Shown piece after piece: positions 20,336 through 44,282 of a DNA stretch of 64,000 nt (position 1 is the stretch's first letter; each line of letters opens with the position of its first letter). The notes below the pieces were generated by a model. It did no database searches, had not been told where the DNA came from, and was given only the letters and a program-made list of their open reading frames with translations. The translations under genes and the position numbers were made by a program. This DNA is from Maylandia zebra (lineage: Eukaryota; Chordata; Actinopteri; Cichliformes; Cichlidae): contig NC_135172.1 of NCBI RefSeq assembly GCF_041146795.1, positions 36,441,623-36,505,622 on the forward strand, given 5' to 3'.

Positions 20336-20966
20336 TTTATTAAACCTTTTCAGTTACATTTTTGAACTGTAAAAATAGTACAAAGTTGATTTCAGTATTT
20401 TTTAGTGAAGCTTTTTTTTTTTTTTTTGCACAAATAAAAGAAATAATATTCAACCTAGTATTTTTTTTCCTGTTTCTGGAGAGTGTTCTAAAAATGTCCA
20501 GAACAAGAGCTGTCGTTTGGGGGGGGGGGGAAAAAATCAACTGTAGCAATGTATGCATAGTTCCTGAAGAGGGCAGTGTTGTCTTTATCAGCCACTTGGG
20601 AAAATTACATTTCACTCCAGTAACAACTGTAACAAATTTTGCAGGGGCATTTTTTTTTTAACCTTTGCCTTTATTTTGCCTTTTCTAGCTCACATTTCAT
20701 TATGTGCAACAATTAACAACTTATACAACATTTACATTACAAATGGCACAAATTTATGTTTAGGATTACTCATCACACAAGGCTGACATACCATCATAGA
20801 AAGATTTCAAAATTTACTTGTATAAAAGTTGAATTAAGAGGTGGACCTGCACACTCATCTCTTTCATATATTCTTCGCAAAGTGCAAATTCAGTCTTAAA
20901 AAGCCACGTGGATGTTTTTCATACATCTGTTTTTTCATCACTGTAAGATAAAACTCAGCATTTTGT
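20336..20966 (-). other. tmc5: tmc5 3' UTR (inferred)
   Basis: Minus-strand AATAAA signals lie at 20675-20670 and 20341-20336. Using the distal one, the 3' end would fall about 100 bases from the inferred gsg1l end on the other strand, so the two genes converge closely. The G-run at 20519-20530 and several T-runs lie here. Confidence 0.5.
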
Positions 20967-23900
20967 TCAGTAACCATCATCGTATTCATTCTGGGCCGCC
21001 TGCCGGGCTAGCATGGCCTGGATAAGAGCACTAGAGCCTGAAGGCCCAGGGTTTTGTGGTGGAGCAGTCATCCACTGAATTCTGTCATCTTCCTGTGCTT
21101 GCTGCCTGGCCTGCATGACCTGCATCATGACACTTGACACTGGATGCGGCAGGTCACCCATGTCATCTTCTGTGTCCTCTGCTCTTCTTCTGGCTTGCAT
21201 GGCCTGTGTGACGGCACTGGATCTGTTGAAAATGTCATATTGATTATTGTCTTCATCCTCCACCCTGTTTCTGGCTGCCATGGCCTGAGCAAGTGCACTG
21301 GAAGATGATGGGTTTTCATCATGCATCGGATACTGATCTTCATTCTCCTGGTCAGCTAGTTGACGGGCCAACATGGCTTGCATCAGAGAACTAGAGTTAG
21401 ACATTTCAGAAGGAACAGGTACTCCACCAATGCTGTATCTTTTCTCCTCCTCTTCAAGTTGCTGACGTGCAAGTAAAGCTTGAACCATGGCATTTGAGTT
21501 GGACTGATCACCAGATGAGTGATCATATGAATGCTGTTTCATGCTCTAAACAGTAAATAAAATATTCAGTAAGGCTGATAACAAGCTTCTACATGCAAAG
21601 TGATGTCAGCATGAAATAATTTTAACAACAAACCCCTTTTTGTTTCTTCTGTTTGGTGTTTTTGTTTGGGATAGATTTTTGAAGGTCCTGTAACCTTTTT
21701 AACAAGAAGGACTTGTCTTTCCCTTCCTGGTGGGAGGGAAACAGAAGCAGTCAGGCAAACAAAAACAAAAACATAAAATGTAAATGTATTCAAGACTAGA
21801 TAAGTTCCACTTGTTCCTGATGTCTGGTGAAACATATATTAAGGGAAACAGTTTCTAGAACAAACTCACATTGACAATCTGTTGTCTCAGACGACGAATA
21901 AGCTCCTTTCGACCATTAGTGACTTGCCACAATATGTATATGATGACACTGAGCAGTAAAATTGCACACAGGAAAACCATTTGCTTAATGACACAAATTT
22001 TGCATCAGTACATATGTGCATTTATATGCAAAGCTCAGTTATATGCAAAACATGGCTTGGACTTTTTCGGTCAACGTTACAAAGTACATGCTGTGTACAT
22101 AAGACAGCACTTGCACTATGCACTTACAGGATGATGAGTGTGATTAGAAAATAGAAGATTTCACTCCGGATGACATTATTGTAAATCTCGACGACCCACT
22201 GAGAGCCAGTGATGTTTTTTAGATCATCTATCCAGACATCAACCGCACTGAAGGAATTGTTGAGTCCACGAAAAGGGCCACAGGACTTTGAGGGAGTCAG
22301 GCTATGGAGCAAGACAGAGTGAACAAAACAAGACTGAGACTGGAACCTTTCTGTATTTTCAGTACAAAATGCATTATTAATCAAAGACAAATATATATAA
22401 ATATATTATTTTATTTTAGCTTAGAAAATAATAAAATAGAATTGATGGATATATTTTTCTCTTTTTTAACAGTTGAAGTCATGTCCTCTTACCTCCAGGC
22501 AGTGTATGCAACAATTGACAGGGCTCCCACGAAGAACGGGAAGAAGAGAAGGAAGATGAAGATGGTTTGCATCTGAGCTGCTCTGCCAGATCGCCGTGGG
22601 GGCTGACAGTTATGTGTGAGACTGACCTGAGAAGTGCAAAAACCAAACTTGTACTACCCCATAAATACACATCCATAAACAAATATATTGATTTATTTTT
22701 GTAGTAACTTTGCTAATAAACTTGTGAGCCATAACAGAAAACAGAGCTTGGAATTGACTTTTTAAAAGATCATTCAGCAGGTTCATGAAACACACAGCAT
22801 CAGCAGATCCGGCCTAGATCAAATTACAAATCCTACAAAGTTCATTAAATTTCAGTGATTGATTGATCTTGTCTGGTACCATTAAACCATAATGGTTACT
22901 CCTTAAATCCGAAACCCAGGCTGTCTTTTCCATTACCCAAAATAAAGCATCCATTCAATGTGATGAAAGGATTTTAATTAATTATTGACTGAGGTGTGCA
23001 AATAGAGTAACATGACCCTTATGGAGCATGGAGCAGTCCTGGTAGCAGCATTTACCTTCTTTAGATAAAACAGGATGAAGAATTTGAAAATCTGCATGGC
23101 AGGTAGCAGAGGAGAGAAGTAGATTCCAATCCTGTGGAGAGAAAATAGACGATTGCATTTAAATAATTTAAAAAGGTCCAAGATCAAGATAGATAACATA
23201 AGATTTGACTAAAATCCACTGACACACTGCTAGAACTTATGAAATGTCGAATGTATTGTTCATATGGTTCATACCAGGCCAGCGTCTGTGAATAGATGAG
23301 TTCAAGCACATTTCTGGCTACGTCAAACTCAGGAACCCCCATGCGTGGTATTAATTTTGTCCCGATCACACTATTAGACAGAAATTGAGTATGTGATTTT
23401 AAACATAGGTTCATCTAACAATATAAAATATGAATTGAAATTCTATAACTCACTTGCTAAGAAACTCTCCAAAGAAAGATCCCAACATCAGGAAAAGGAA
23501 GTCAAAAAGGACCAGACGGTACAAAGACTGCCCTACCATGGACTCCCAACCCTGATGAATGAAACAAATTCACGAATGAATGTCTATGCCTAATGAATAA
23601 AGTAGGGACAGATAAAATAAACGTATGTTGTGTTTAAAAAACACAAATAAATAGATAAATGGATATTTATTACTTACTTCTGAACCTTTATCAGGCACCT
23701 TCTTCATCCAATAATAACACAAAACAGACAGAATGGACATCTTGAGAAAGACATTTCTGTATGTGAAAAAAGAAAGTATTTCAATTTTTATTATTGGTTA
23801 AATAAATAATTATATTTGCTTTGTGCTAGATGTCCAAATCCAAATCCAAATCCAATTTATTTATATAGCACATTTAAAAACAGAAAGTTTTCCCAAAGTG

Positions 23901-26900
23901 CTGTACAGAAACAAAGGAGTAAAACACAAGATGAAGCCACTGACACTCACATAAAAACACAATACTACACATAATAAACATATCAACTCACACCAGTCTG
24001 AACGCAATCGAAAATGGGTGTGTTTTCAAAAGCGACTTAAAAACAGGAAACAAAGATGCCTGTTTAATATTTAAAGGCAGCGTAGTCCAAAGTTTTGGAG
24101 CCATAATTGAAAAGGCTCGTTCTCCTCTTTGTTTTAGCCTAGATTTTGGGACAACCAAAAGCAGCTGATCTAAGGGTCCGCGAAGGAATATAAGGCTGAA
24201 GTAACTCGGAAAGGTATGGGGGAGCAAGACCATTAAGGCATTTATGGTCTATAAATTTATAGATGTGTCGATAGCTGCACCACTTTACATATATACAGTC
24301 ATGGCTTTACATAGATACCACTATACTTTATATATACTTTTGTTTAAGCCTGGTCCTAGAACTGTTCCTAGATCCTAGCACTCCCAGTCTTCTCACTATA
24401 CTTCAGGAAGTCCTACATTGTTTTATAACACAGCCCACAAATTACACTGCAATTAACTCTAACAAGATTGGGAGCCTGCTACCATGCTGGTGACTCTGTG
24501 ATGATGTCATAGGCACACCAAAACAAGGTTAGTTGCCTCCTTATTTCCGGTCTAATGGTAAACTAAGATATCTGTATTTTGTTATCTATCTAGACATAGA
24601 CATAGACATATTTATATACATATATTGTTTTATTTCACCTGATCAACAGAGCATATATCTGTTTGCGGTGGGTGGAGTAATGCTCAAATTTGTTGAAGAG
24701 GGAGTAGAAGAGTGGAATAACCAGGTTTATTAAAGACACCACAAAGGGAACCAGGAGTGTCTTTGCCTCCTCAAGCAGAGACCAATTGTCATTTTCTGTT
24801 GGCTGCAGTAAAACATAAAACAGGTAAAGATAGTGGATAATGACAAATACTGTATGCAATGAAACAATAAAAAACCCTGCACTGTTGGTAAATGACAAGA
24901 CTTTCAGTAAATTTATGACACCTGGTTTAGATTTTCACGCTCTGAGAGTACAGGTGAGGTATATATTTTTACATGTTTTTTAGCTTCTACTAGTTTTACT
25001 AACAAGAAAAGTGATTTCTCTAGAGAAAAAATATGCATTCACATTGCCTGTAGTCTACATTTAACAGACACAAGTAATTCCAAAGTCTAATTATTCCATT
25101 TTAACTTATGTACCTCAATCTCATACTTGCAGAGATAGTAAATACCGGCTGCACAACCAAAAGCCAAGCTTGTGGAGAGAAGCCAGCAACTAAAATGAAT
25201 CCCATAGTGCTTCAGTTTTTCAGAGACTGTAAGGCGCTCCTGCTGGGCCGTTTCTGATAAAGACTCCTGAGTGAGCAGCAAGAGGACAAACAATGAAATA
25301 CTGATGTGTATGTAGGTGTAAAATACAGAATTTCAATCTGTCACAGTTAATTCAGCATTTGATATTTTTTAGAAAAAGAAAAAAGCTATAAGTCACCTTG
25401 AGCTGGACACAAAGGTTGTTCCTGCGCTGTTTCACTGCTTTCTCATTGGTTACACTAAAATCCCAGGTGCAAAGAAGTTGCCATGCACTGTTTGATGTCG
25501 AGTCTGCTAGTACATAGTTGTTCTTGAAATTGACTGCCATGCTGCACGTGGACAAATCAAGATTCAGAATCATTGTTAGAATCAGAGCTATTGGAGCAGC
25601 TATGAGAGTTTTTATATCTACAACTATTAATCAATGTTATGATTGCTTGTTTTGGCATACTTATATTAGAATTTTCACATTTCCTAATAATTTATTATTA
25701 TATTTATCAATTTTTTCTTTTAACTTATCTCCTCTTCTCCCACATGCATGTTGAGGAGTCATAACAAAGCAAATTCCCTGTGGACTTGAGTAAAATCTTT
25801 AGCATGATGAGGACTTAACTAACCTGAAAATAAGTGAAATTCCACATAGCACCATATAGACTGCAATGGTGAAGAAATAGGCCAGCTGCATGTTGTAACC
25901 CACCAGAGATTCATTGCTGTAGCTACCGTAGTACATGACCGTATACTTGAAGTAACCCTAGGAAATCCAAAATATATGCAACTCTTGTTCACTCAGTACA
26001 GAGAGAATTAGAAAACATCTAACATGATATTACATAATACATATCAACAGTGTTTGCTAGTTCTAATTGATTATGATCTGCCATCTAGAGCAGATTCATG
26101 TTTTAGATTTTCTTTTGTGAAAACAAATGCTGTTGCACTGTCACTCCACTTGACGAAACCCCACTTGTGGTTGGGGTTTGCATGTGCTCTTTGTGCATGA
26201 ATGTTAGGTTAACTGGTGACTAAACTGGCTATAGGTGTGGATGTGAGACTGGTGATCTGTCCAGACTGTATCCATCATTGGAAAACAAATAACTGCATCC
26301 AAAATAATGCAGATTTGAGCCATGAGCATGAGCCATGACTGAGAACCTTCACAGACATGAGCATAAACCAAATAATTAGCTCTTTAAATATTACATAGTC
26401 ATTTAATTAAATGGTAATTATTACATTAGCTTTAAATTTTAAAATAAGGATGGTTGTGACTTCAACAGAAGATAAATGCATGTACTACTTACAGCTCCAG
26501 TTAGTATCTCCAGTCCTCTGAAGGTCACATTTTGGGGTACGTTGTTCACAATTTGAGAAATATTTGGGGTTTGCTTGTAAACAAGCAGAGGGATGGTGAC
26601 AAAGCCAAAGTTGACCAGGAATGAGAAAATGTTAAACATGAGAAGCCACTTCAGGAACACAAAATAGGTGAGAACACTGGTCCCAAACTTCCCACCAATG
26701 CTTTTCATAGCGCCTTGCCACAGTTTCAGGGTCTGCTTGGCTGACTTTACATGGTACCCGCATTTTCGTGAAAACTGAAAAAAGATCATAACATTCTGTA
26801 TGTAGCATATGAGCACAAATTATGAATGAGCTAGGCTCATAAAGAGATGCAGCTGTTGCTTTTATGACAGATAAAACACTCACCAGAGACAGCTTTTCAG

Positions 26901-29900
26901 AGCAATCTGCCAAACATGTGAATTGGCGAGACTTCTTGGAAGACTGTAATTCCAATTCTTTCCTGTAAGAGTAAAACCATTGGGATCCTTGTCAAGCAAA
27001 TTACCTGCATCACAAGTTTCTGCAGGCTGTAGAAGCCCCTTTGGACTTCAGTTAGTACTTTCTTGTGTAATTTGTGTTGGACAAATACTTCCTTCTTCCT
27101 TCTTTATTGCAACACCTGTGGCCTCCAAGCATTTGCATACAGCCTAGTTTATGGTTCCCAGCAGGATGCAATGTTTAACTAAATGTTTCGAATGACACTG
27201 AGAAGGATTTTGTTATCATCTTTATTTGTTTGTGGCTCACCCACCTGATATGTTTCTTGTCTTTAAAGCTCATTGGAAGATCCCGAATGGCCTGGATTCT
27301 GTCTCGTGTTGACAGAGCAGCAAGTTCCTCGAGCAAGTTTTGTTGCTCTGCCAGACACAAGATGACAAGACAAGTGCTGGCTGTTAAATCTTTGCGAGTA
27401 CTGCCTTTCAGAATACATATCAGGTGTCATAATTCACTATCCAAAAATCCACAGGATAATCTGACACCCCTCAGGTGTGCTTACCATTTTGCATCTCATT
27501 CCAGATGGCATCCTCTGTGAAAGCTGTTTGGGTATGATCTGCATTAGGAAACATGCTCATCCTTCTCATCGCTATTCCTCTCCACCGCATTGTCATTTTT
27601 CCTGGATTTGCACACAAGCAAAAGACAGCCAGCCTTCTGTTGTGATTATTGTGGATTTTCAAACTCAAAAGCATGAGATTGATACAAGAACAGAGTGACA
27701 GTCAGCAAATGAACTGGGTAGCATTTTTAAATGTAACACCTGCAGCCGTTTATGCAGCCTTTATCACTTACTCTTTTCTATAATAACAATAAGCTGCTAC
27801 TTATTTATAAATCTAAAGATAAATATCGACTGCAAAAACATTGACAGAAAGCACTGCTGATAGTACAGGACACAGCACCATATACAAACTAATGTGGGTC
27901 CTAATATGCAACTGTTTGTTCAAAATCTTTATTTCTGATGAATTTATGATTTCATATTTATTTTCATTTCATATAATGCTATGATACTGAAGGTGTTGGT
28001 GCCATTGCCCACCAAACTGTATTACTTTGCAGTTATTGTCAGAGTATCAGTCTGTGTGTATTATTTGCATGCATTAGTTTTAGTCTTGGTATGACTCTGG
28101 AATTTCTTTTTAGTCTTTCAGAAGCATAAAGATTAAATAAAATGGGAGGAAATGGAAGACATAGTTATAATTCATCCTGAATTTCTATCTATATGGATTC
28201 CATGACAGTCCATCCAACAGTTGCTAATACAGTTTACTTGTGTATTTAATGTAATAGGTGATGAAATAGATATTAGACAAGTGAAAACAGATGTAAATCA
28301 AAGTTGTATATCTGTGTCATGTTCTATGGTAATCAAACTATACACTGAAAAAAAGGCCATGTTGGATTTACTTGATTCAATAGTGGACATTGGTTGCACA
28401 CAAATGTTTTGCTTTGGCAGAAACTTAGACAAATGAGTTAAATCAACACAACTTATTCCTATTCAATAAACCTGTGCATTTTGTGTTCAGAAAACACAAC
28501 TGAAACATGTTTAGATGAAGTAAGTTGAGCTCTTGGAATATTTTAATCCTTCACAATTTTGTCATTTTATTTCAACACTATTCAATAACTGTTACCCCAG
28601 TACTACTTGGTCACTTAAATACTACATGTTGTCTTCATATTACATAATGTTCAACAAAGTCTAGAGTCTGGTTACTATAAAAAGTGAACGGGTCTACAAC
28701 AACTACAATCCTCCTATCTTTCAGGGGCATAAGCCTGAAGTGATAGGTCACTCGGCAGCGAACACCCTGGACAGCTCACCAGTCTACCACAGAGACAAAC
28801 AACCATTCACATTAAATTGTGGATTTGAACCCAGGACCTTTGTGAGGCAACAGCACTAATGCCACCATTACATGTGGTTAAACCATGATAAAAAGCGATA
28901 GCATACATGTGGTGTGTTTGTAGTTGTCTGTGTAATTTCATGAGTCCAGCAACTAGCCACTCTTACTAGATTGTATCAGATCATCTCAACAAGAACAAAT
29001 TAAGTTGTTGAATTTCATACAGATCCTACATGATTTAATTACGTTCAAGATAGAAACATGAAATTTTTGTGTTCAAATTAAAAGGTAGGCTTTTTTAATG
29101 TAACAACCACCCAATTTACTTCTTTCGGTTTACCAAAAAAGTAGAGGCGGCTGCTCGACTTGACTGAGATGGATGCCTTCGTCAAACCACGATCCAAAGC
29201 ATGCGAGACTGAAATCCTGTGTGATGTAAACATTGCTATATTATTGACTTACTTCACTCGCTGTTGGTCACATGAACAATAACCGTATGACTGTTCCCAC
29301 CACTAGCTCATGACCCTACGCTGTGTTCACTGCATGATTCCATGTTTTGGCACTGATCACCACCTGCACTCATGTATATATCTTTCTACGTAGCACTTTT
29401 AATTCTTATTCTCATGTATATATCTCATGTATATCTCATGCATATATCTTTCTACGTAGCACTTTTAATTCTTATTCTTACTTTTATTTTTTCATGTCTA
29501 TTTAAGCGCAATTTATGACAGCATGTTTGCACTGAAGCAACGCAGCAATTTCCTAATGTTGTAAACCTGCTCAACATTTGGCAATAAAACCCTTTCTGAT
29601 TCTGATTCTGATTCAAACATGAACAATTTAATCTACCCTCTCTGCATATTATGTAGTTTCTACACTATAGAGTTACTATAGAGTTACACTTAACTTTAAA
29701 GCATGAGGCACTTGTGTTAAATACACACAAGATACTTACATAAATCCAAGAGCTGGCCAATCCCTTTTTTTCAGTGTAGTTGAAAAACCGACCAACAAAC
29801 ACTTCTACTGTATGCTGTAACTTTTTATTTGAACTTCATGCAAAAAACATTTACTAAATAATCCCCTTTGCTCTGTTTTATTTTCTATGCCAATTTCCTT

Positions 29901-32026
29901 GTAGCTTTTATTGTTGACATCCATTATATCCACAATTAAGGATACAGTCTAGTGAAGACATGAGTATGAGGATGAATGGCAATGTTATTTGAACACTCAA
30001 AAAAAAAATGAAATTGGGTGGTTGTTACATGTACAAGATTCAAACTTGTAATTTGAACTAAATAATTTCATGTTTCAATGGTGAATGTAATTAAATCATG
30101 TAGCATCTGCATGAAATTCAGCAACTTAATTTGTTCTTGTTGAGATGACATGATACAATCTAGTAAGAGTGGTTAGTTGCCTGGACTCACAAAATTCACA
30201 AGATCACATTAGATGTCAAACTGCAGGAAAATCGCTGGAGTTTTAAGAGGCAGACAACTACACCACGTGTATGCTATCGCTATTTATTGTGGTTTAACCT
30301 GTCAAGGACAAAAACATACAGAAAATTCTGCATCAAGCCTTCTAATCATAGCTTTCCTTTTGGTAAGCCTGGATTGACAGCTTGGTGGCGTGATGGTTAG
30401 TGCTGTTGCCTCACAGCAAGAATTCTAAATTACCCATGAATATAAGTGCAAATGGTTGTTTGTCTCCATGAAATCATCAACCCCCATATTGGTTCATTGA
30501 GCACGACTAGCAGTAATTGCCTTGATTAACAAAGTAGTTGTTCAAACAACAAGATTTCATTGCGTTTTCCTAAAGTTTTTAACTTGTGTAGAATCAATTA
30601 AAACAAATTTCACTCTACATACTTAAATAAATCACTTCAAGTCAATGTAAGTATACTACGCTGATCCAACATAATCTGATTACATTAAGCCACCAAATGC
30701 CAAATGTGTTGGTTTGACATGGTCAAAAATCGGTTATTGTACTTGGTTAAATCACGTGGAAAAAGGCGCCATGATTAAATTGTGTTCATCCAACAACAGA
30801 TTTTTTTGAGTGAAATGATTATCCTGTGATGGAAACTTTACAGATTAATGTGTGTTTAGTTATACCATAAAGGAACTGTGTAATCTTAAGTGTCATGAAG
30901 CGTATTACCTGAAGACGATGGAAGTGGAATAGATCTTGACTGATTATATTCAGGGTCCATCCCAAATATACTGTGATCTAAAATGTAGAGGAGATAGAGA
31001 GGAAGTATCAACAAAAGGTTACTTAGCAACATCCACTGGCATATACAAAAAACGAAGCTGCTGAACAAGTAACACAACTTTTTCAATCAAACAAACACAA
31101 ATGTGTACAAAAACTTTATGTTGCTTTATAGTTAAATAATTTAACATGGCCACAAAGAGGTGATACACATACTGGGTCCATGGTGCCTTGGAGGACTCCT
31201 TGGGCGTATGGAGATGGCATCCATTGGGATGTTTTCTCTACCCCTCCAGCTTTGTTCCTGCCAGCCACCTTGAGGCACTCTCCCTATAGCAGCATCATTG
31301 CTAGCCCTGTCACCCCACCAGGTTGGGTCTTTGTTGTCATAGGGGTTAGTATGATGGGTTTTGCTGGAAGCCCTAGAGCCCAAACAGAATAAATTAAATT
31401 ATTAATAAATTATATAAATGTATGACACCTAAGAGCACTGACGTTATCACATCAGGAAGAGAACAGAAATTTCAAGTCACCGATATAGTTATTTGAATTT
31501 AAACTGTGGAGGTTTTATTTAATTTAAAGTACATTCAGTCTTATAGAGTATTGGACTCATTTTAACAGTAAACTGCAGAGACTAGTATGCTAAAGTTTAC
31601 TCTAGGGCTCTCATATAATCATCCACAATCCTCAGACCTTAAATCTTGTACCAAAAAGATTAACACTAAAATGAACCAGCCGAGGATAAAGCAAAGATAT
31701 ATAACAAATTCGCGCTGTTGCCTTTTTCTTGAGGCGATCCTGTTGAAGCTAGTTTTTCATTTGCTTGCTTGACATTCTGACCTTTTCTTCACAGTACTTC
31801 CTCTTACTACAAGCACACACAACACACCACTCAAACTCCTTCACAAACACATTCTTTGACAAATTGTAATTCTATACTTTTCAGGAAAAAAGATTTCTCT
31901 GATGCACATTTGAGGACAAAAACAAATTTTATGTTATAATATAAACACAAACCTTCTATCAATTTCCAGAGTCTCGGTGTCATGGTATGCATGGTTGAAA
32001 AATCCCCCGTTCCTGTAACTTGTCAT
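20967..32026 (-). CDS. tmc5: TMC5, transmembrane channel-like protein with repeat tail
   Basis: TMC proteins are multi-pass membrane proteins related to the OSCA/TMEM16 fold; TMC1/2 form hair-cell transduction channels, while the role of TMC5 is poorly known. Exons in coding order: 32026-31953, 31372-31173, 30977-30909, 27601-27485, 27347-27245, 26962-26884, 26774-26493, 25957-25824, 25541-25397, 25266-25114, 24802-24639, 23756-23678, 23551-23454, 23370-23275, 23131-23056, 22626-22493, 22301-22128, 21948-21870, 21726-21634, 21545-20967; 975 aa. GGKFGTSVLTYFVFLKWLLM, GYFKYTVMYYGSYSNES and the EGKDKSFLLKRLQDLQ helix match TMC5. The TMC signature reads GWESMVGQSLYRLVLFDF; the usual Cys is Gly. 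Residues 784-975 (last exon) form a six-fold repeat tail. The start chosen is the first ATG after an in-frame stop; a further 5' exon is possible (33797-33675). Confidence 0.88.
23828..24240 (-). mobile_element. LINE 3' fragment in tmc5 intron
   Basis: The minus strand encodes VVPKSRLKQRGERAFSIMAP, then KLWTTLPLNIKQ and FKSLLKTHPFS, the C-terminal end of a fish L2-like ORF2. It ends in a tail with TGCTATATAAATTGG and (GGATTT)n at 23828-23855. It is 5'-truncated and lies in the intron between the exons ending at 24639 and starting at 23756. Confidence 0.8.
28343..30812. repeat. 2.5-kb foldback (long inverted repeat) in tmc5 intron
   Basis: 28876-29117 and 30011-30299 are inverted copies; for example ATGTAACAACCACCCAATTT pairs with AAATTGGGTGGTTGTTACAT, and the outer parts pair through GGTTAAACC and GCGATAGCAT. 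The right arm has about 45 extra bases. Pairing continues outward in weaker form: GTGAGGCAACAGCACTAA near 28841 with its complement near 30399, and GAGACAAACAACCATT near 28792 with its complement near 30447. The outermost ends are CACTGAAAAAAAGG and TTTTTTTGAGTG. It could be a non-autonomous DNA transposon with very long inverted ends or two opposed copies of one repeat. No target duplication was found. Confidence 0.65.
29140..29613 (+). mobile_element. LINE tail inside the foldback spacer
   Basis: This ends in GGCAATAAAACCC followed by TTCTGATTCTGATTCTGATT, the typical 3' end of a fish LINE on the plus strand. It includes a ~40-bp direct duplication (CTTTCTACGTAGCACTTTTA at about 29391 and 29449). 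No open frame survives; the 5' limit is approximate. Confidence 0.5.
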
Positions 32027-33499: not shown

Positions 33500-36400
33500 A
33501 TGGAAGTCGACTCAGGTATTTTTGAAGTTCGTGCATTACTTCAGAACATTAATTAACCCAATTTATTTCTACATTAGCTAACTAGCTAATAATGCTAGCC
33601 GCTAAAAAGTAGCTAAAAGTTTGTTGTGCTGGTGAATGATTTGACAGAGGGTCATATAACGATTACAGGAAGACCTTCAAATGAGAGCAGGAAGAGATTT
33701 TGTTTGTCTGGTTTGGCTCGAGTGTGTTTACGGTGTCGAAACTCAATTGTCGGCTCATAAAACAGTCTGCTCCCTTGGTTAGCCATTGTCTTTTCTCCTG
33801 GGAGGCAAACGTAAAAAGGAGTGTCGAATTTTAACAATGTTTTTGTTAGCTGTAGATACATATACTTGAGTTGTGACGTGATGTTATTGTTTGTATGTGT
33901 AAACTTATTATAAGGCGCAGGGTGTTAGGGACATTAGGGTAGCCAGTAGTGACCTGTTCGTATACAGTACTTATTAAAAATCTATTAAAAGCTCATAAGT
34001 GTGCACAGTTTGAAATATCAGTATCCTGTGATCTACAATTTATCATTAATTACTTTTGTGGAATGTCGAGTTTAAGGGTGCATCATTTTCTTCATTTGTA
34101 TTGATTTTTATTATTATTCCCATAATATAAAACAGCTTCTTCTCAGTTTTCTGTCACTTAGAAAAGTGTTAGAAAACTCTGTCCTCCTCTCGTTCTTCTC
34201 ACCACTCTCAGTCAGTGCAACCTCAATTCCCCCTTTCTCTTCCTTTCCACCATCCTCTATCACATGTTCTTGCTCACCCTGCTACACAAACTCTTACTTG
34301 AAGTATAATTTTTCAGTTTTCATCCTTTTGGGGCTCATGTCAGAGGTCAACTCTGATCATTGAGGCACAGTTTAACTCTTGCGAATAATGTAGCTATCTT
34401 TATATTTGTGAAATTTTAAATGAATCCCAACACTATAACAACAGTACCTTGAGAAGACCTGATATCAGTATGTTAAAGTATGTTAAAAATACATTAGATT
34501 AAATTAGATTTATGATATGTTCAATGTTTTGAACTTGTGACAGCCATTTTCTGTTTGTTTTACTTTGATGTTATCAAACAGAAGTCATATGGCAGTTTAA
34601 AGGTCTTGCAGATATAAACCAGGTGATTCAGTAATACGTAAAAATGGTTTCCACAGACATGCTACCAGAGGGTTTTCTAGATGTAGAAAAAGCTACATCT
34701 AACGAAACTATTGGCATGTGAATGTTTTTTCCTTTTCATTCTTTTTTTATTTAGATTAAGAAGAAGTGTCAGTTCGGTATTTTAAGCCTTAAGATATACC
34801 AGCTTCCTCAAAATGCCTTGCTTGCCTAACAGCTGGCTCCACATACAGAAGCAGAATTCTACTTGATGTTAGTCTTAGTAAAGTTTCAGTTCAAGCTGCT
34901 ATCGAAACAAATGATTACTTGAAATAACTTTTTGTTCTCAAGATACGAGCTCATCATGTGTCAAATAATTTGGAGGAGACCTGCTTCTGGTTATCTGGCT
35001 GTTTCTGAAATTCATGGCCACATGTTATAATGGTGTTAAGTTTAGCTTGGTAAATTTGAGAGACATCCTATATTGATTTAACGTTTTCAACAGCCTCTTA
35101 ACCATTCTTAACCTGTTAGCTGTTATCTTTGCTGACCTTCCTTTTGAACGAAATGTGTTAATGGCTGACAAGTGAACTCAGTTTACCTCCTTTGCCTCTC
35201 AATTCTTTTGTTTTAATGCCATTTCTCAATTTTGCTTTCTTGGAGAAAGACATGAGTAATGAGACTCATTAGCAGTCACCTGGAGAGAATAAAGTAACTG
35301 TGCTATAAGGTTGAGCCTCAATGTGTGTTGGACTAAACCATTTCTAAATTTGTAAGTCTGGCAGAGAGCTTCTATTATTTTTGTAATCATCCAACAGATT
35401 TATTCAGGCAGTTTAATTATGACATAATTTACATAGGGATTAAAAAATGTAAACAAAAGCATTTTTTTCATTCCTGGCTTGGAAGGGCCCCTCCTGCTGG
35501 AGCTCTAGGTAGTACTTTTCTCTCCACTGCTACAACCTATTTTTTAAATGGTGTTGATGAGCATTTTTTTAGCCTTTCTGGAGTTTTTTTTTTTTTTTTC
35601 ATGGTTTAAATTTTATCTTTAGTCACTATGTTAATATCAGTTTGTTCTCATTTCTTTTGTCATGGTGTGTGGTGGTCCTTTGATAAAACTGAATATATGG
35701 AGGGAAAAAAATAGGAAAAAAATAAAAAGCAAACTTGTCTAAGAGAATTCAGACTGTGCTGAAGAATAAAGGTGGTCAAATGAAATGTTGACTTTCAAGC
35801 TGCATTGTATTTGTACAGTACAGCTGTACAAATATAGCATTTTTACGCTATTTCTATGCATGATTGCACTTGTCAGTAGATCTCTGCACTTATTTCTCAA
35901 TTTCATAGCAAAACATGAAGAAATGAGGGATGGTTTGTGTCTTTTGCATGGTGATGTAGTTATTATCTCAACTTGAATCCAACTTGAGTCTGCAAATAAA
36001 AAAAAGTTTAGTTTATGCAAATCTCAGACAACATATACATCCTTAGAAATATATCTGTGCTAGCCCAATATCAAGTGAATCGTGTAGCTGTCCATATTTT
36101 TATGTGGACGTGAATGGATTGGATGGATGGATGGATGGATGGGTTGATCCTGATTTGAAGTGACTGTTGTGAAAATGCAGGGGTAATTAGCTCAGTGTTA
36201 AACACAGTCATATTACTTTGTATTATGTATATTTCATCGAGTTTTGTTTTCTGTACAGATGCAATATTAGCATCTGTTCCAGAAGAGCAAAAATAAATGT
36301 CATGTAAGAAACATTACTTTGTTTGTCTTTTCAAGTGTTTGTCACTGATCACAGTGGGCGAATCAGCAGTAACCCTCTGCTGGACCAGCTCCCCAGTTAC

Positions 36401-39400
36401 CAGTCCCTGCTGTACCGCAGGAAGTCGTCAACTGTTGGCTCCAAACAAAGAGGCAGCTCTAGAGCAAGGGTTGGCTCATCTGGCAGTTGGAAATGGGGTA
36501 TAAACACCTTTGTAAGACAAACCGTGAAACAGAAGAGTCAGACTGAGAAGCGACACATCAGAGAACTAGCCAAGCCCATGGCTGAGAAACGCAAACAGTA
36601 GGAAACTGTAGTCTGTTATGACTTCTTTCACTAATAGCTAAATAACGTTTTTGTGTGTCAGGAGTTTATTTGACTGTTTGATGTTTTAGGAAACGGTGTG
36701 CAGAAGATGCTCAAGAGTTGAGCAGCTGGCAACAGTGGCGACAAAGCACCCGCAAGTATCTGAGGAGGATGAGAGATGAAAGCGAAGAATGGCTGAGCTC
36801 TTTGAAGCTCTGGAGGGGAGACATCCACCTAATAGAAGGTAAAAGAAAGACAAACAGATTGTCTGACAGAAATTGTTTCTTTGGTCTCAAAGACTTGTTT
36901 GGATTTCTGTTCAGATGGTGCTAATCGGTAATTATAATTTTGCTAAGACAAAGTGTACCTTTGTGTTATGTCAGACTTAAGTTCTCCCTTTTTGCCTCTT
37001 TCACTTGTCACTAGGGATGTTTGGAACAGGGATCCTGTCTTACTTCTCCTTTCTGCGCTTCCTGGTCACACTCAACTTTATCATCTTTCTGCTCATGTTC
37101 GGTTTTGTCATGTTGCCCATCATCATTGCACCCCATGTTTCAGGAAATATCACCTTCAGCCAGAATGATAGTGAGAGGATTATTTGTTTGTTTGTTTCAA
37201 TTAGAAGCATATACTAAGCAAGAAAGATGAAAAAGCTTAGCTTATCTGTTATATTACAGGTTACTGCAGCGTGTATGAAAGTGGCAGTCGTCGAGGTCTT
37301 GTTAACTATCATAAGTATATTACTGATCTGCTTTCTGGTGAAGTAAGTGTTGTCACATTATTAGTCTCCTGAGAAAGAGTCCACTCTGTAGTTTCTGTAC
37401 TCACCTGCTGTGCTTCATCTGCAGGGCTTTCTGGAACAGACCTATCTTTTCTACGGCTTCTACAATGTGGAAAAAATCCATTTCTCCCACATAACTTATA
37501 ATTTGGCACTGGCATACCTGCTGGTCACTATAGGGTACCTCTTCCTCAGTCTTATCTGGATTGTTAAAAGGTATGAAAAAGGCAAACTCATAAGAAATAA
37601 CATTTATGTGATGAGATGTGGTCTTGAGTGTTTTCTTCTTTCGAAGGTCTGCCACCGGGTTCAAACATAATCTGATTCAGGATGAGGATTGCTTTCAGAG
37701 TTTTTGCAACAAGATCTTTGCTGGCTGGGATTTCTGCATCACCAGTGAGAATGCTGCAAAGCTGAAGAAAAAGACGTTGCTCTATGAGCTGAAGGTTAGT
37801 TTATACATCAGAAGCATGATTGTAAAACTGGCTAGTCAAAACAATGGCCAGTTTACAAATTTGTTTTAAACTAATTTGAAAAAATGGGTGCTTACATGAC
37901 ACCCCAGCAGCTACATACAATTACTCTAAAGTAAAAATAAGATGTGCATTTTAATATAATCTACTTTTATGGCTTTAGTGACATTCAAGGCCCCAGTTCC
38001 CACATGCATTACTACCGGGGTCACATGCTAATCAGCGGTATTCTGTGCTATCATTGGTAGTCGCTTCAAATCCTCACCAGGAAGTTAAAGGCAAGGCAAG
38101 TTTATTTGTATAGCACAATTCAACAACAAGGTGGTTCAAAGTGCTTTACAGAGACATTAGAAACAAAAACAAATAAAAAGCATGATTTAAAATTGATTAA
38201 AACAAGCAAACAAACTAACTAAATAACAAACAAACAAACAAACAAACAAAACAGTATGTAAAATCAAAACAGATAAAATCAGAACAATAGATAAAATCAG
38301 TAGTTAAAATGAGCTTAAAAGCTTAAAATAAATTTATCACAGGTCCCGCCTGCTTCACAGTGCCAGCAGTTATTTAGCCTCTAACCACGTGAAGTCACTG
38401 AATGTCATTCACTTTCTATTGCCCCTGGTTGCCACATAGCTGCCAATTGTTTTCAGTGTTGATGCAGCTCTACCCTGTACCTGTGTCCTGGAGGTAGTAG
38501 TTCATATGCATGTTAGAGAGGGTGCAATACATCACTGAGAATTGCTTACACTTGTCCCTTGATGTTCCTTAAAGTAAAGTAAAAGAAAAATTTTATTTAT
38601 ATTGCACCTTTCAAGATAAAAATCACAAAGTGCTTCACAGAAGCTAAAACATAAAAATCAAAATCAACCAAAAGCGAGTTTAAAACAACAACAACAACAA
38701 AAAAAACTTCATTAGTCTTACTGATGAGTCTAAAGTAAAGAAAATTAATAATCAAACACCATCATTTTGTTGTCTTGCCTTATTTTAAAATTCATATTTT
38801 TATATCTTTAGACTGATTTGGAGGATGAGAAGATCAAGCAGAAAATAGCAGAGCGCACCCACAAAGAAAAATGTCGGCTTTACTTCATCCGTCTCATCCT
38901 GAATCTTTTCGTCATTGGTGTACTGGCTGCTTGCTTCTACTGCATTTATTTAGCCACTATCTTCTCCCAGAAAGCCCAAATGAATGACCAAAAGGTAAGA
39001 CAATTTTTTTTAATATTCTTTCTCTCCACCCACTTTGATTCAACCTTTATGTAGAAATTTCTGGTAAATGTTGGCAACACAGGATAAAAGGTATTTGTTG
39101 TTTCTCCTCTTTTGCAGGTGAATTTCATAGTAGATCTCATTTTTGAGTATCTACCTTCAATTGTTATCACCTTTGCCAACTTCATTACCCCAGTACTTTT
39201 CTCTTTTATCATCAACTTTGAGGACTATTCTCCTGCTTTTGAGATCCGCTTCACTCTTATGAGGTAAAATGGAGTCTTGTGTTTTGACCTGCTTACTCAT
39301 AGATGCAGATTTGAACTTGAAAGTATTTCTGATTTGCCTTCTTTCTTCCTATCCTCACAGGTGTGTCTTCATGCGGTTAACCAGTATTGTGGTTTTGCTC

Positions 39401-42400
39401 TTTTCTGTCTGGTCTCGGATCACTAAATGTAAAGATGATCCCTGTATTTGTGGCTACAACCACGATCTTTACCCTGTAAGTAATCCTCTTTTGCCATAAT
39501 GTAATATACAGTGGTTTGCAGGGGTAGTGCCACAGGTACCAGTGTCAAACTCATTTGTATCTTTGCATTAGCTGTTATACATACAGTGGGGCAAAAAAGT
39601 ATTTAGTCAGCCACCGATTGTGCAAGTTCCCCCACCTAAAATGATGACAGAGGTCAGTAATTTGCACCAGAGGTACACTTCAACTGTGAGAGACAGAATG
39701 TGAAAAAAAAAATCCATGAATCCACATGGTAGGATTTGTAAAGAATTTATTCATAAATCAGGGTGGAAAATAAGTATTTGGTCAATAACAAAAATACAAC
39801 TCAATACTTTGTAACATAACCTTTGTTGGCAATAACAGAGGTCAAACGTTTACTATAGGTCTTTACCAGGTTTGCACACACAGTAGCTGGTATTTTGGCC
39901 CATTCCTCCATGCAGATCTTCTCGAGAGCAGTGATGTTTTGGGGCTGTCGCCGAGCAACACGGACTTTCAACTCCCGCCACAGATTTTCTATGGGGTTGA
40001 GGTCTGGAGACTGGCTAGGCCACTCCAGGACTTTCAAATGCTTCTTACGGAGCCACTCCTTTGTTGCCCGGGCGGTGTGTTTTGGATCATTGTCATGTTG
40101 GAAGACCCAGCCTCGTTTCATCTTCAAAGTTCTCACTGATGGAAGGAGGTTTTGGCTCAAAATCTCACGATACATGGCCCCATTCATTCTGTCCTTAACA
40201 CGGATCAGTCGTCCTGTCCCCTTGGCAGAAAAACAGCCCCATAGCATGATGTTTCCACCCCCATGCTTCACAGTAGGTATGGTGTTCTTGGGATGCAACT
40301 CAGTATTCTTCTTCCTCCAAACACGACGAGTTGAGTTTATACCAAAAGGTTCTACTTTGGTTTCATCTGACCACATGACATTCTCCCAATCCTCTGCTGT
40401 ATCATCCATGTGCTCTCTGGCAAACTTCAGACGGGCCTGGACATGCACTGGCTTCAGCAGCGGAACACGTCTGGCACTGTGGGATTTGATTCCCTGCCGT
40501 TGTAGTGTGTTACTGATGGTGACCTTTGTTACTTTGGTCCCAGCTCTCTGCAGGTCATTCACCAGGTCCCCCCGTGTGGTTCTGGGATCTTTGCCCACCG
40601 TTCTCATGATCATTTTGACCCCATGGGATGAGATCTTGCGTGGAGCCCCAGATCGAGGGAGATTATCAGTGGTCTTGTATGTCTTCCATTTTCTGATGAT
40701 TGCTCCCACAGTTGATTTTTTCACACCAAGCTGCTTGCCTATTGTAGATTCACTCTTCCCAGTCTGGTGCAGGTCTACAATACTTTTCCTGGTGTCCTTC
40801 GAAAGCTCTTTGGTCTTGGCCATGGCGGAGTTTGGAGTCTGACTGTTTGAGGCTGTGGACAGGTGTCTTTTATACAGATGATGAGTTCAAACAGGTGCCA
40901 TTCATACAGGTAACGAGTGGGGGACAGAAAAGCTTCTTACAGAAGACGTTACAGGTCTGTGAGAGCCAGAGATTTTCCTTGTTTGAGGTGACCAAATACT
41001 TATTTTCCACCCTAATTTACGAATAAATTCTTTACAAATCCTACCATGTGGATTCATGGATTTTTTTTCACATTCTGTCTCTCACAGTTGAAGTGTACCT
41101 CTGGTGCAAATTACTGACCTCTGTCATCATTTTAAGTGGGGGAACTTGTACAATCGGTGGCTGACTAAATACTTTTTTGCCCCACTGTATGTGTTAGAAT
41201 GTGAATATTACATATGTTAAGTGTAACTGCACGAATATGTGCCCATATTTTGGTCTCTTAGACTTTTAATTTTAAAAAGTATTAAAAAAATAGTATATTC
41301 CTAATCACCCTATAAAATACATTTCTTAAATCGTGACATTGTATGTATGGTAAAATCCAGTCTCTATATCCTTGTTGCTGTCGACAGTGCTGGGAAACGC
41401 ATGTGGGCCAAGAGATGTACAAACTCACCATCTTTGACTTCATTGTCATCGTTTCCGTCACCATCTTTGTGGAGTTTCCTCGAAAGTAAGACCTCATTTA
41501 TCCACAGTAGAAAAAAAGTACAGTTCATCTAGTTTTGTGATCATCTCATGACATTTGAAGAGGTGTAAACATGTCACCTTCATAAAAGATTAAGAATCTC
41601 TAATGTAACAGTTACAGGAGCTGACTTGGACTACCGTATTTTTCGATAGTGCGCCTTATAATCCGGTGCGCCTTATGTGTGAATTCTGGTTGTGCTTGCT
41701 GACCTCGAACTGATTTTATGTGGTACACTGCGCTAAAAAATCTGTCAAAAATGTTTTAGTTTGACTAAGCTACAGAGCCGCACCGCTTGGATGGATTGTC
41801 GGAGAATTACGGCTACTGTAGTCAGGAGCCTCGCGGAGTAATCTGGGTCTAAAACTTCGTCCGCTTCAGGTCCCAAAGTTAGATGAATACTGCGACATCA
41901 CTGAGAGTTAGAAACTGTCTAAATTCCTTCATCTTTAATAAAAATGATCAGCGTTGCTGCTTTACCAGGTGGAACAATTAAGTTTAACATCCAGGCATCC
42001 ATCAAAACAGAATTTATTAAATTTAACAGAGTTAGAAGTTAGCATGAAGTTAGCTCGCTAGTTTACACCGAAACATGATATAGCATGTTCTGACTGAGAT
42101 TTCTGAAAAAATTAAAATGTACAGCTCTGCTATCACTTCCAGCATAAATAAGGACAGAAAACTAAACAGCAGTGATGTTTGTAGAGTTACTGAAGTTGGA
42201 TTAACTGGTATATAATGATGTGCTACGTGATCGCTAATGACACAGCTATGTTAGCATAACATAAACACAGTGAAACTGGAGGATGAACGCTAACTTTTTT
42301 CCACTCGATAAAAGTTAACGTTAGGGTTCCCGATGGTTAGGGACAAATGCAATCGCATGGCAGGATGCTGTAAATGCACCAAACTTCAGTCAGGAGAACA

Positions 42401-44282
42401 ACTGAGACAATCCATCCACAATACAAGGTTAGTCATTAATATACTGCAACAACATGGGAATAGAGCAGCTGTGAGAGAATTCAGCATTAATGAATCAATG
42501 GTACGGAAGTGGAGGAAGAAAGAGGAATGAGTTGAGTCAAGTTTGACTTGTTTTGTTTCGCTTAATGCGCCCTATAATCCGGTGCGCCTTATGTATGAAA
42601 ACAGATCCATTCATCGACAGTGCGCCTTATAATCCGGTGCACTTTATGGTCTGAAAAATATGGTAGTTTTAGTGTTAGCTTAGTTAGTCTAAATAAATGT
42701 AGCTAAAATTATTCTGTCACTGAAGGCTTTGTTTTCTCTGATTATTTCTGCTTTAGTCATTTTTGTCCTTCTTGTTCTATCCTACCCAGACTGCTTCTGA
42801 GGTACAGTAATTCTGCCCTGGCTAAATGGATGAGCCAACAGGAGTTTTCTATTCCTCAGAATGTACTGGAGATCGTCTATGGTCAGACCATCTGCTGGAT
42901 CGGCACTTTCTACTGCCCACTGCTGCCTGCTATCTGCACCCTCAAATATTTCTTTATTTTTTACATCAAGAAGGTGACATTTTGGTTTGAATGCATGTAG
43001 TTTTTTTCCTTGCAAGAGTGAAGGAAAAAAGCATGAAATATTCTAGTAAGCCTCATTTGCAAATTTTTGTTTGCTAGGTATCATTAATCAAAAACTGTCG
43101 TCCAGCCACACGTCCTTTCCGAGCATCCAGCTCCAACTTCTTTTTCCTCGGCGTGCTGTTGATCGGCCTGACTCTTGCCTGTGTGCCTGTCATAGCTAGT
43201 ATAGCACAGTGAGTAATGTTCATACTGTGTTCTAATTATATTTGTATAGTTTGTATGGAGCTTTAAAAGAACCTCTAGCAGAAATATTCATGCCAAAGGT
43301 CAAAATCTGGCCACTGCCATATAATTATTTTTTTCTTAATATGGATAAATATAGGAACTCTTACTTGTATGCACTCACTTATACTTCCTTTTTGTTCAGG
43401 ATAAACTGTTCTCGGGCCTGTGGACCTTTTGTTAATTACGAAACCTCCTGGTACGTGGTGCCAGCTACAGTTTCTCAGCTACCCAAAGGAGTCGAAAAGC
43501 TTCTTCGTGCTCTCTCTTCAGAGGCCTTTGCTGTCTCTTTCTTTGTTATCACATGGTTGGTCCTCTTATTATATATTTTCACCTTTTTAACATTGTTTTT
43601 CCTCTGCTGTAATTTTATACTTTGTTTCCATGTTTTTTCCAGTTTGGCCATGTTTTATGTGATTGCACTTGCTGGAGCACACAAGAGGGTCATTAATGAA
43701 CTAAGACACCAGCTAGAAATGGTAGGTCTTATTCTTCCCCCCCCCCCCCCCCCCCCCCAAGGGAGGGAGTATGTAATTGGTTCCGTTTGTTAGAAGTCTA
43801 GTGCCCACACTTTTAAAGATATCGTTTTCAAATTTTGTGTGATTGTAGATACAGATAACGGCTTAATTTATTGTTGGTGAAAATCTAGTCGAAGTTACAC
43901 ACCTTATTTTTTCAATATGTTCTGTACGATATCAGTAATAAAAACATCATAAAAAGTCAAAGTTTTATTATAGCTCTTGTCCTTCAGGGGGAGTTGCGTA
44001 CTCTGAGTGTTCTTGTTATCAATTCAGTTATTGCCAAATACAGTGTGAACTGAAATCTGTTTGTGTTAATTTGTCAATCAGGAGGGCCGCGACCGGCGTT
44101 TCCTGATCCAGAAGCTGTGCCAGGCCCAGAAGCGCTCAGGTGTGAGATCCCCACAATCCAAATTCCAACCCCGCCGCAGCAGCAGCAGAAGCAGTCCTAG
44201 CTACCACACTAGCTTCGCCACCAATTTCAGTGATGCGGTGTTCCTGGCCCATGCAGCTCCAAGCTCCTCCACTCAAGTTTAA
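33500..44282 (+). CDS. tmc7: TMC7, transmembrane channel-like protein 7
   Basis: A multi-pass TMC-family membrane protein; the specific role of TMC7 is not well established. Exons: 33500-33515, 36336-36597, 36690-36838, 37015-37170, 37260-37342, 37425-37570, 37647-37794, 38812-38994, 39118-39263, 39361-39475, 41388-41485, 42790-42973, 43078-43208, 43400-43555, 43643-43721, 44082-44282; 750 aa, against about 723 in human. Exon 1 codes only MEVDS plus one base. Seen hallmarks: [37 protein letters not shown], the canonical TMC signature [31 protein letters not shown] and the C-terminal [18 protein letters not shown]. The tail is Ser/Arg-rich ([11 protein letters not shown]). Intron 10 contains an intact Tc1-like element and intron 11 a pogo-type element. 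The exon 14 donor is weak (ATG|GTTGGT) but required by phase. Confidence 0.93.
33675..33797 (-). CDS. Candidate upstream coding exon of tmc5
   Basis: The minus strand has an acceptor-like TTGCCTCCCAG, then GAGAAAAGACA and ATGG in good Kozak context at 33786. The frame begins [20 protein letters not shown] and continues to FLLSFE before a possible GAAG|GTCTTC donor at 33675. The phase (one base left over) fits a splice to the tmc5 first exon at its ACTGAG|CTGAGG acceptor, giving FEAEESLLSPKKSK. A second choice (CCT|GTAATC to the next AG) is also in frame. Both splice sites are weak, and the acceptor near 32060 lacks a good pyrimidine tract. No known family was recognised, so this is a hypothesis. 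Confidence 0.35.
36116..36142. repeat. (GGAT)n microsatellite
   Basis: Six tandem GGAT-type units in tmc7 intron 1. Confidence 0.9.
38093..38345 (-). mobile_element. LINE/SINE-type 3' tail with AAAC repeats
   Basis: GGCAAGGCAAGTTTATTTGT, then ATAGCACAATTCA and CAAAGTGCTTTACAGAGACA, is the reverse complement of a common fish LINE 3' tail. CAAA-rich simple sequence follows at 38210-38250. It lies in tmc7 intron 7. Confidence 0.6.
38577..38712 (-). mobile_element. Second LINE-type 3' tail in tmc7 intron 7
   Basis: TTTTATTTATATTGCACCTT followed by CACAAAGTGCTTCACAG is a diverged relative of the tail 480 bases upstream. It ends in CAACAACAACAA simple sequence. No coding part remains. Confidence 0.55.
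39584..41187 (-). mobile_element. Complete Tc1-like transposon (1604 bp)
   Basis: The ends are CAGTGGGGCAAAAAAGTATT at 39584 and its reverse complement at 41187, with TA on both sides (39582-39583, 41188-41189). The inverted repeats are about 200 bp (39584-39784 and 40989-41187). By eye they differ by four substitutions and a length change in an A-run, about 98% identity. The transposase frame is open over its full length. It sits in tmc7 intron 10, antisense to tmc7. Such a complete, barely decayed copy suggests a recent insertion. Confidence 0.95.
39801..40823 (-). CDS. Tc1-like transposase, apparently intact (340 aa)
   Basis: It cuts and pastes its element at TA sites. Residues ~1-110 form the paired-like DNA-binding region with two helix-turn-helix parts ([33 protein letters not shown]), joined by a GRPR-like segment (PRSGAPRKI). 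The catalytic triad of a DD34E enzyme is present: Asp in [10 protein letters not shown], Asp in [12 protein letters not shown], Glu in [15 protein letters not shown], with 34 residues between the last two. The glycine-rich box is [15 protein letters not shown]. There is no stop or frameshift, and the length is normal for the family. The opposite-strand frame (39895-40842) is a shadow. Activity itself cannot be judged from sequence. Confidence 0.95.
41634..42663 (+). mobile_element. pogo-type non-autonomous element (1030 bp)
   Basis: Left end CCGTATTTTTCGATAGTGCG and right end (reverse complement) CCATATTTTTCAGACCATAA are related. TA flanks both (41632-41633, 42664-42665). Subterminal GCGCCTTATAATCCGGTGCG motifs recur at both ends. 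The frame at 42333-42530 reads [20 protein letters not shown] then [13 protein letters not shown], the N-terminal helix-turn-helix of pogo/Tigger-type transposases, and stops. The catalytic domain is missing, so the copy is defective. It lies in tmc7 intron 11. Confidence 0.8.
43737..43758. repeat. C22 homopolymer in tmc7 intron 15
   Basis: Twenty-two consecutive C starting 16 bases after the exon 15 donor. Long C/G runs are unstable and prone to sequencing error, so the true length may differ. Confidence 0.9.

Follow-up and report, generated by a model that had tools for sequence, protein, structure and literature searches.

What closes the tmc5 gene of Maylandia zebra, and what might such an ending do for the protein? 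Within the window, the whole stretch of 64,000 nucleotides analysed here, the last tmc5 coding exon occupies positions 20967..21545 of the minus strand, an open frame of 192 codons plus stop, exactly the extent that the sequence-only reading had given it. This exon completes a model of 20 exons and 975 residues (coding region 20967..32026, minus strand) that was joined by eye from the sequence and then checked by script; all 19 introns are GT...AG, and joining yields a single open frame. The acceptor of the last exon, TTATTTACTGTTTAG, is good, and both acceptor and phase (0) fit. Exon 19 (21634..21726, minus strand) encodes a post-transmembrane element, EGKDKSFLLKRLQ, followed by a Lys-rich stretch; the order in tmc5 is the last membrane helix region, the conserved post-membrane element, and the repeat-tail exon. 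About 290 bases past the stop codon is an AATAAA, a possible polyadenylation signal (20670..20675, minus strand). The donor of the last intron, between exons 19 and 20, is a weak GTTTGT, and an unspliced reading past exon 19 (21622-21640, minus strand) stops within about four residues, after VCC. Given the weak donor and the early stop on read-through, a tail-less TMC5 could conceivably arise when the intron is retained.

The gene is best named tmc5, as had been claimed. Its product contains the TMC domain PF07810 at residues 535-640 (E 4.3e-37; 127.5 bits against a cut-off of 25) and aligns with the structures of worm TMC-1 (E 1.3e-41) and TMC-2 (E 3.1e-35). It lies beside NOMO and head-to-head with a second, divergently oriented TMC gene, probably tmc7 (36308..44282, approximate limits, plus strand), whose last exon at about 44082-44282 encodes a 66-residue tail without the repeat. 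NOMO begins at about 46 kb; SEC23-like exons lie at 3-4.5 kb and a GSG1-like exon at 15 kb. A second TMC gene, NOMO and a GSG1-like gene in the window are neighbours in keeping with a TMC5 orthologue. Genome-wide, PF07810 matches at least 18 stretches in at least ten places on at least six contigs (30 candidates scored). The contig also carries a second divergent TMC pair at a distance of about 0.9 Mb (35542387-35567449, with genes at 35.54 and 35.57 Mb). NOTUM adjoins the minus-strand gene of this pair (E 2.8e-13, PDB sequence search), which marks the pair as tmc6/tmc8-like; Pfam gave no match for one exon of the NOTUM candidate, a second stretch on the other strand yielded nothing, and a TUG match farther along is below cut-off. 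In human, TMC6 and TMC8 are near NOTUM and ASPSCR1 at 17q25, and TMC5, TMC7 and NOMO2 are on 16p12. Set against that map, the neighbours mark the window pair as probably tmc5/tmc7 rather than tmc6/tmc8, and the other pair as tmc6/tmc8. Tmc56 and Tmc487 are described as separate clades of the TMC family in PMC7003098. Two head-to-head TMC pairs on one contig look as if an ancestral Tmc56 plus Tmc487 pair had been duplicated in cis. The tmc7 gene also contains a 361-residue open frame (39804-40886, minus strand) for a Tc1/Sleeping Beauty-type transposase with HTH_SB, HTH_Tnp_Tc3_2 and DDE_3 domains.

The tmc5 tail carries six units with an approximate consensus of S-S-A-[LMV]-x-Q-A-M-x-A-R-Q, and an acidic linker comes after each of them. 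All on the minus strand, and delimited by unit alignment and leave-one-out profiles, the cores are SNAMVQALLARQQLEEE (unit 1, 21447..21497), SSSLMQAMLARQLADQE (unit 2, 21345..21395), SSALAQAMAARNRVEDE (unit 3, 21252..21302), SSAVTQAMQARRRAEDT (unit 4, 21171..21221), SSVMMQVMQARQQAQED (unit 5, 21087..21137) and SSALIQAMLARQAAQNE (unit 6, 20985..21035). The anchoring Q of the core falls at tail residues 22, 56, 87, 114, 142 and 176, with spacings of 34, 31, 27, 28 and 34; this periodicity of 27-34 residues is close to the unit length of 25-33 proposed earlier. Numbered from that Q, columns -5 to +8 read S, S, A/S/V, L/M/V, variable, Q, A, M, variable, A, R, Q/N/R, variable and A/L/V. Every unit shares S(-5), Q(0), A(+4) and R(+5), and five of the six are identical at S(-4), A(+1) and M(+2). 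Past column +8 the residues are mostly acidic or Gln, and the acidic residues after each core give the net charge of -2 to -6 that an acidic stretch, as first described, would imply. Between units, the linkers vary freely in both length and sequence.

Two kinds of comparison bear out the six-fold repeat. In ungapped self-alignment the tail reaches a best score of 104, against a maximum of 52 among 500 composition shuffles, and 13 diagonals reach 30, against five or fewer in the shuffles. Each of the six units is also recovered by a profile built from the other five (E 3e-6 to 1.9e-3 for a database size of 2000). When the unit profile was run against the six frames of the window, the next best match had an E of only 0.44, over seven columns; the window therefore contains six copies and no more. 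At its default score, Tandem Repeats Finder listed no DNA-level array at the tmc5 tail.

These are six diverged, old copies of one core, in which the protein was kept alike while the DNA drifted. The invariant Arg is spelled by four codons (CGT, AGA, AGG and CGG) and the invariant Ser by TCA, TCT or TCC. Between units, pN/pS is 0.22 for columns 0 to +5, 0.30 for -5 to +5, 0.37 for -5 to +11 and 0.45 for the acidic flank (+6 to +11), ratios that are biased downward since the columns were picked for likeness. Pooled over 15 unit pairs, pS is 0.75-0.96 and pN 0.18-0.43, with synonymous sites near saturation and many pairwise dS values not computable. The protein likeness kept in spite of this drift suggests a possible role for the tail as a strip of several docking sites.

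The repeat appears to be confined to a single gene. Searched against the 962-Mb genome, the tail protein has one match at E<=1e-3, namely itself (four candidates scored). The unit profile detected no repeat in the second TMC gene of the window. Nor did it find one in the 80 kb surrounding the tmc6/tmc8-like pair or in 10-kb stretches at six other TMC places (best E 2), of which the 10-kb stretches may miss some last exons. The genome pattern A-Phi-x-Q-A-M-x-A-(AG/CG-), which as designed cannot match tail units 1, 2 and 5 and has zero matches when reversed, occurs in six places; three are tail units 3, 4 and 6, and the other three are solitary and have Ser instead of Arg at the last position. 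Viral contigs gave seven matches to the tail pattern and prokaryote genomes 38, none confirmed, and vertebrate relatives are not expected in either set. An EGxDxxFLxx[RK]L element past the last membrane helix is common to tmc5, tmc7 and the tmc6-like gene. Beyond it, the tmc7 end is Ser/Arg-rich, while no more than about 20 residues seem to be left in the tmc6-like gene. Because the post-membrane element is shared and the repeat is found only in tmc5, we regard the tail as an addition after the common end in one paralogue; it could be lineage-specific and dispensable. In the literature, the letters QAMLARQ have no match, and no mention of such a TMC5 tail occurs among the matches listed for TMC5 and the TMC family.

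We next consider the shape of the cores. Each had been read as a short amphipathic helix, an idea that fails: measured at 100 degrees, the hydrophobic moment does not rise above shuffles (unit p 0.99, 0.81, 0.82, 0.40, 0.71 and 0.86; combined 0.99), because Q, R and Q/N/R fall on different sides of the helical wheel. Kyte-Doolittle, one of the two hydrophobicity scales used, gives p 0.73, 0.053 and 0.55 over three stretches, and amphipathic helices are rejected for the cores on both. Nor did 12 tests find any clustering on a conserved helical face of the cores (p 0.14-0.54), while for a face of smaller residues p is 0.046 or 0.31 depending on the register. A better description of the core is that its first half is hydrophobic and its second charged. 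Helicity itself is plausible. With a single sequence as input, AlphaFold2 predicts helices at tail residues 13-36, 52-68, 83-125, 136-159 and 170-189, which cover all six cores and place units 3 and 4 within one long helix, at low confidence (mean pLDDT 58.7; pTM 0.18). A simple helix-propensity scan marks the same six core positions, and the agreement of the two predictions makes helical cores plausible, weakly so at all six and without the amphipathic character.

We then compared the protein with known families and motifs. The TMC domain is familiar, and the six-unit tail, absent from tmc7 and the tmc6-like gene, matches nothing in Pfam (whole tail or any of the six units, E<=10) or among PDB chains (sequence and profile searches, E<=10). 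IQ and WH2 motifs were rejected, with no Pfam match and with their consensus patterns unmatched in the tail, as were the patterns for LIR, PPxY, NPF, dileucine and C-terminal PDZ ligands. The tail contains one Y-x-x-Phi (YDIF, residue 886) and one PxxP (946). Closest in layout are proteins with tandem ubiquitin-interacting motifs (UIMs; PF02809), which likewise combine short helix-prone tandem motifs with acidic surroundings and an L-x-x-A spacing; unlike them, the tail has Arg in place of Ser and no acidic lead. Identity with the UIM is rejected, given that none of the six units matches at E<=10, that the yeast Vps27 UIM matches PF02809 at 1.5e-5 as a positive control, and that the UIM pattern, Phi-x-x-Ala-x-x-x-Ser with an acidic lead, is unmatched in the tail.

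A precedent for helix docking exists within the family. In the docking of CIB by TMC1/TMC2 (and in TMC6-TMC8-CIB1), helical segments of cytoplasmic TMC parts sit in the groove of a small calcium-binding protein, CIB, according to PMC10895266 and PMC11900603. That site is in a loop, here tmc5 residues about 366-407 (exons 9-10), outside the repeat tail; the TMC1 peptide in the structure with CIB3 (6wud_B) aligns to this loop at E 8.3e-5. With a CIB-docking loop recognizable in its sequence, TMC5 may be a candidate for CIB binding that is worth testing.

Our preferred reading, to which we give about an even chance, is that TMC5 ends in an acidic, largely disordered cytoplasmic extension bearing six copies of a putative helix-prone docking motif. 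Three points make it the likeliest: constraint is concentrated in the cores rather than the linkers, repetition multiplies a short site, and docking through helices is already in use between TMC proteins and their cytoplasmic partners. One alternative is a functionless spacer, the drifting product of old internal duplications, consistent with linkers that vary freely and with the lack of anything alike in the tmc7 or tmc6-like tails. We judge this unlikely, as the core codons show, per site, far fewer amino-acid-changing than synonymous differences, and four residues have stayed the same in all six old copies. Slightly less expected is an assembly strip in which the cores pack against one another or against the TMC body, within one molecule or from dimer to dimer. 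Small residues recurring at -3, +1, +4 and +8 (at 40-100 degrees on the helical wheel) and the merging of units 3 and 4 into one long predicted helix would suit such packing; the small-residue face, however, depends on register, Pro/Gly linkers and strong negative charge disfavour tight self-packing, and the pTM of the AlphaFold2 model is low.

Two other explanations appear improbable. The cores might form a degenerate ubiquitin-binding array, with L-x-x-A-M-x-x-R at UIM spacing and Arg at the place of the UIM Ser; five of the six units fit [LIMV]-x-x-A-[LIMV] and acidic residues lie close to each core, yet the failure of the tail and all its units against Pfam, where the Vps27 control succeeds, and the missing Ser and acidic lead make this a slim prospect. 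About as slim is the prospect that the exon was annotated in error and represents a chance open frame apart from tmc5. The weak GTTTGT donor and the protein end reached after about four unspliced residues would be expected of such an artefact; an open frame in phase 0 whose six repeats seem to be constrained, flanked by a good acceptor and a downstream AATAAA, would not.

If the docking tail is the correct interpretation, each core would turn helical on docking to a cytoplasmic partner, with the invariant Q-A-M-x-A-R set as the putative contact. Worm TMCs are dimers; six copies would give avidity, and twelve would be available were TMC5 a dimer as well. Such avidity suggests that the tail may gather or anchor the channel rather than take part in gating. 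The multivalent cytoplasmic binding site first imagined for this tail is in this respect a fair reading of a repeated, acidic C-terminal tail, minus its amphipathic helices. We also raise, as a doubtful extension, that the core represents an undescribed class of helical docking motif that arose when the end of a single TMC paralogue underwent old internal duplications, and that a dimer displaying twelve sites uses its avidity for one partner to cluster or anchor the channel, separately from the CIB site.

Apart from the expression in olfactory neurons reported in PMC13164078, TMC5 is not known to have a function. A constrained, repeated tail provides a ready handle for the discovery of TMC5 partners: as bait it offers 192 soluble residues with six equivalent sites, and the invariant Q, A and R can be mutated as a control.
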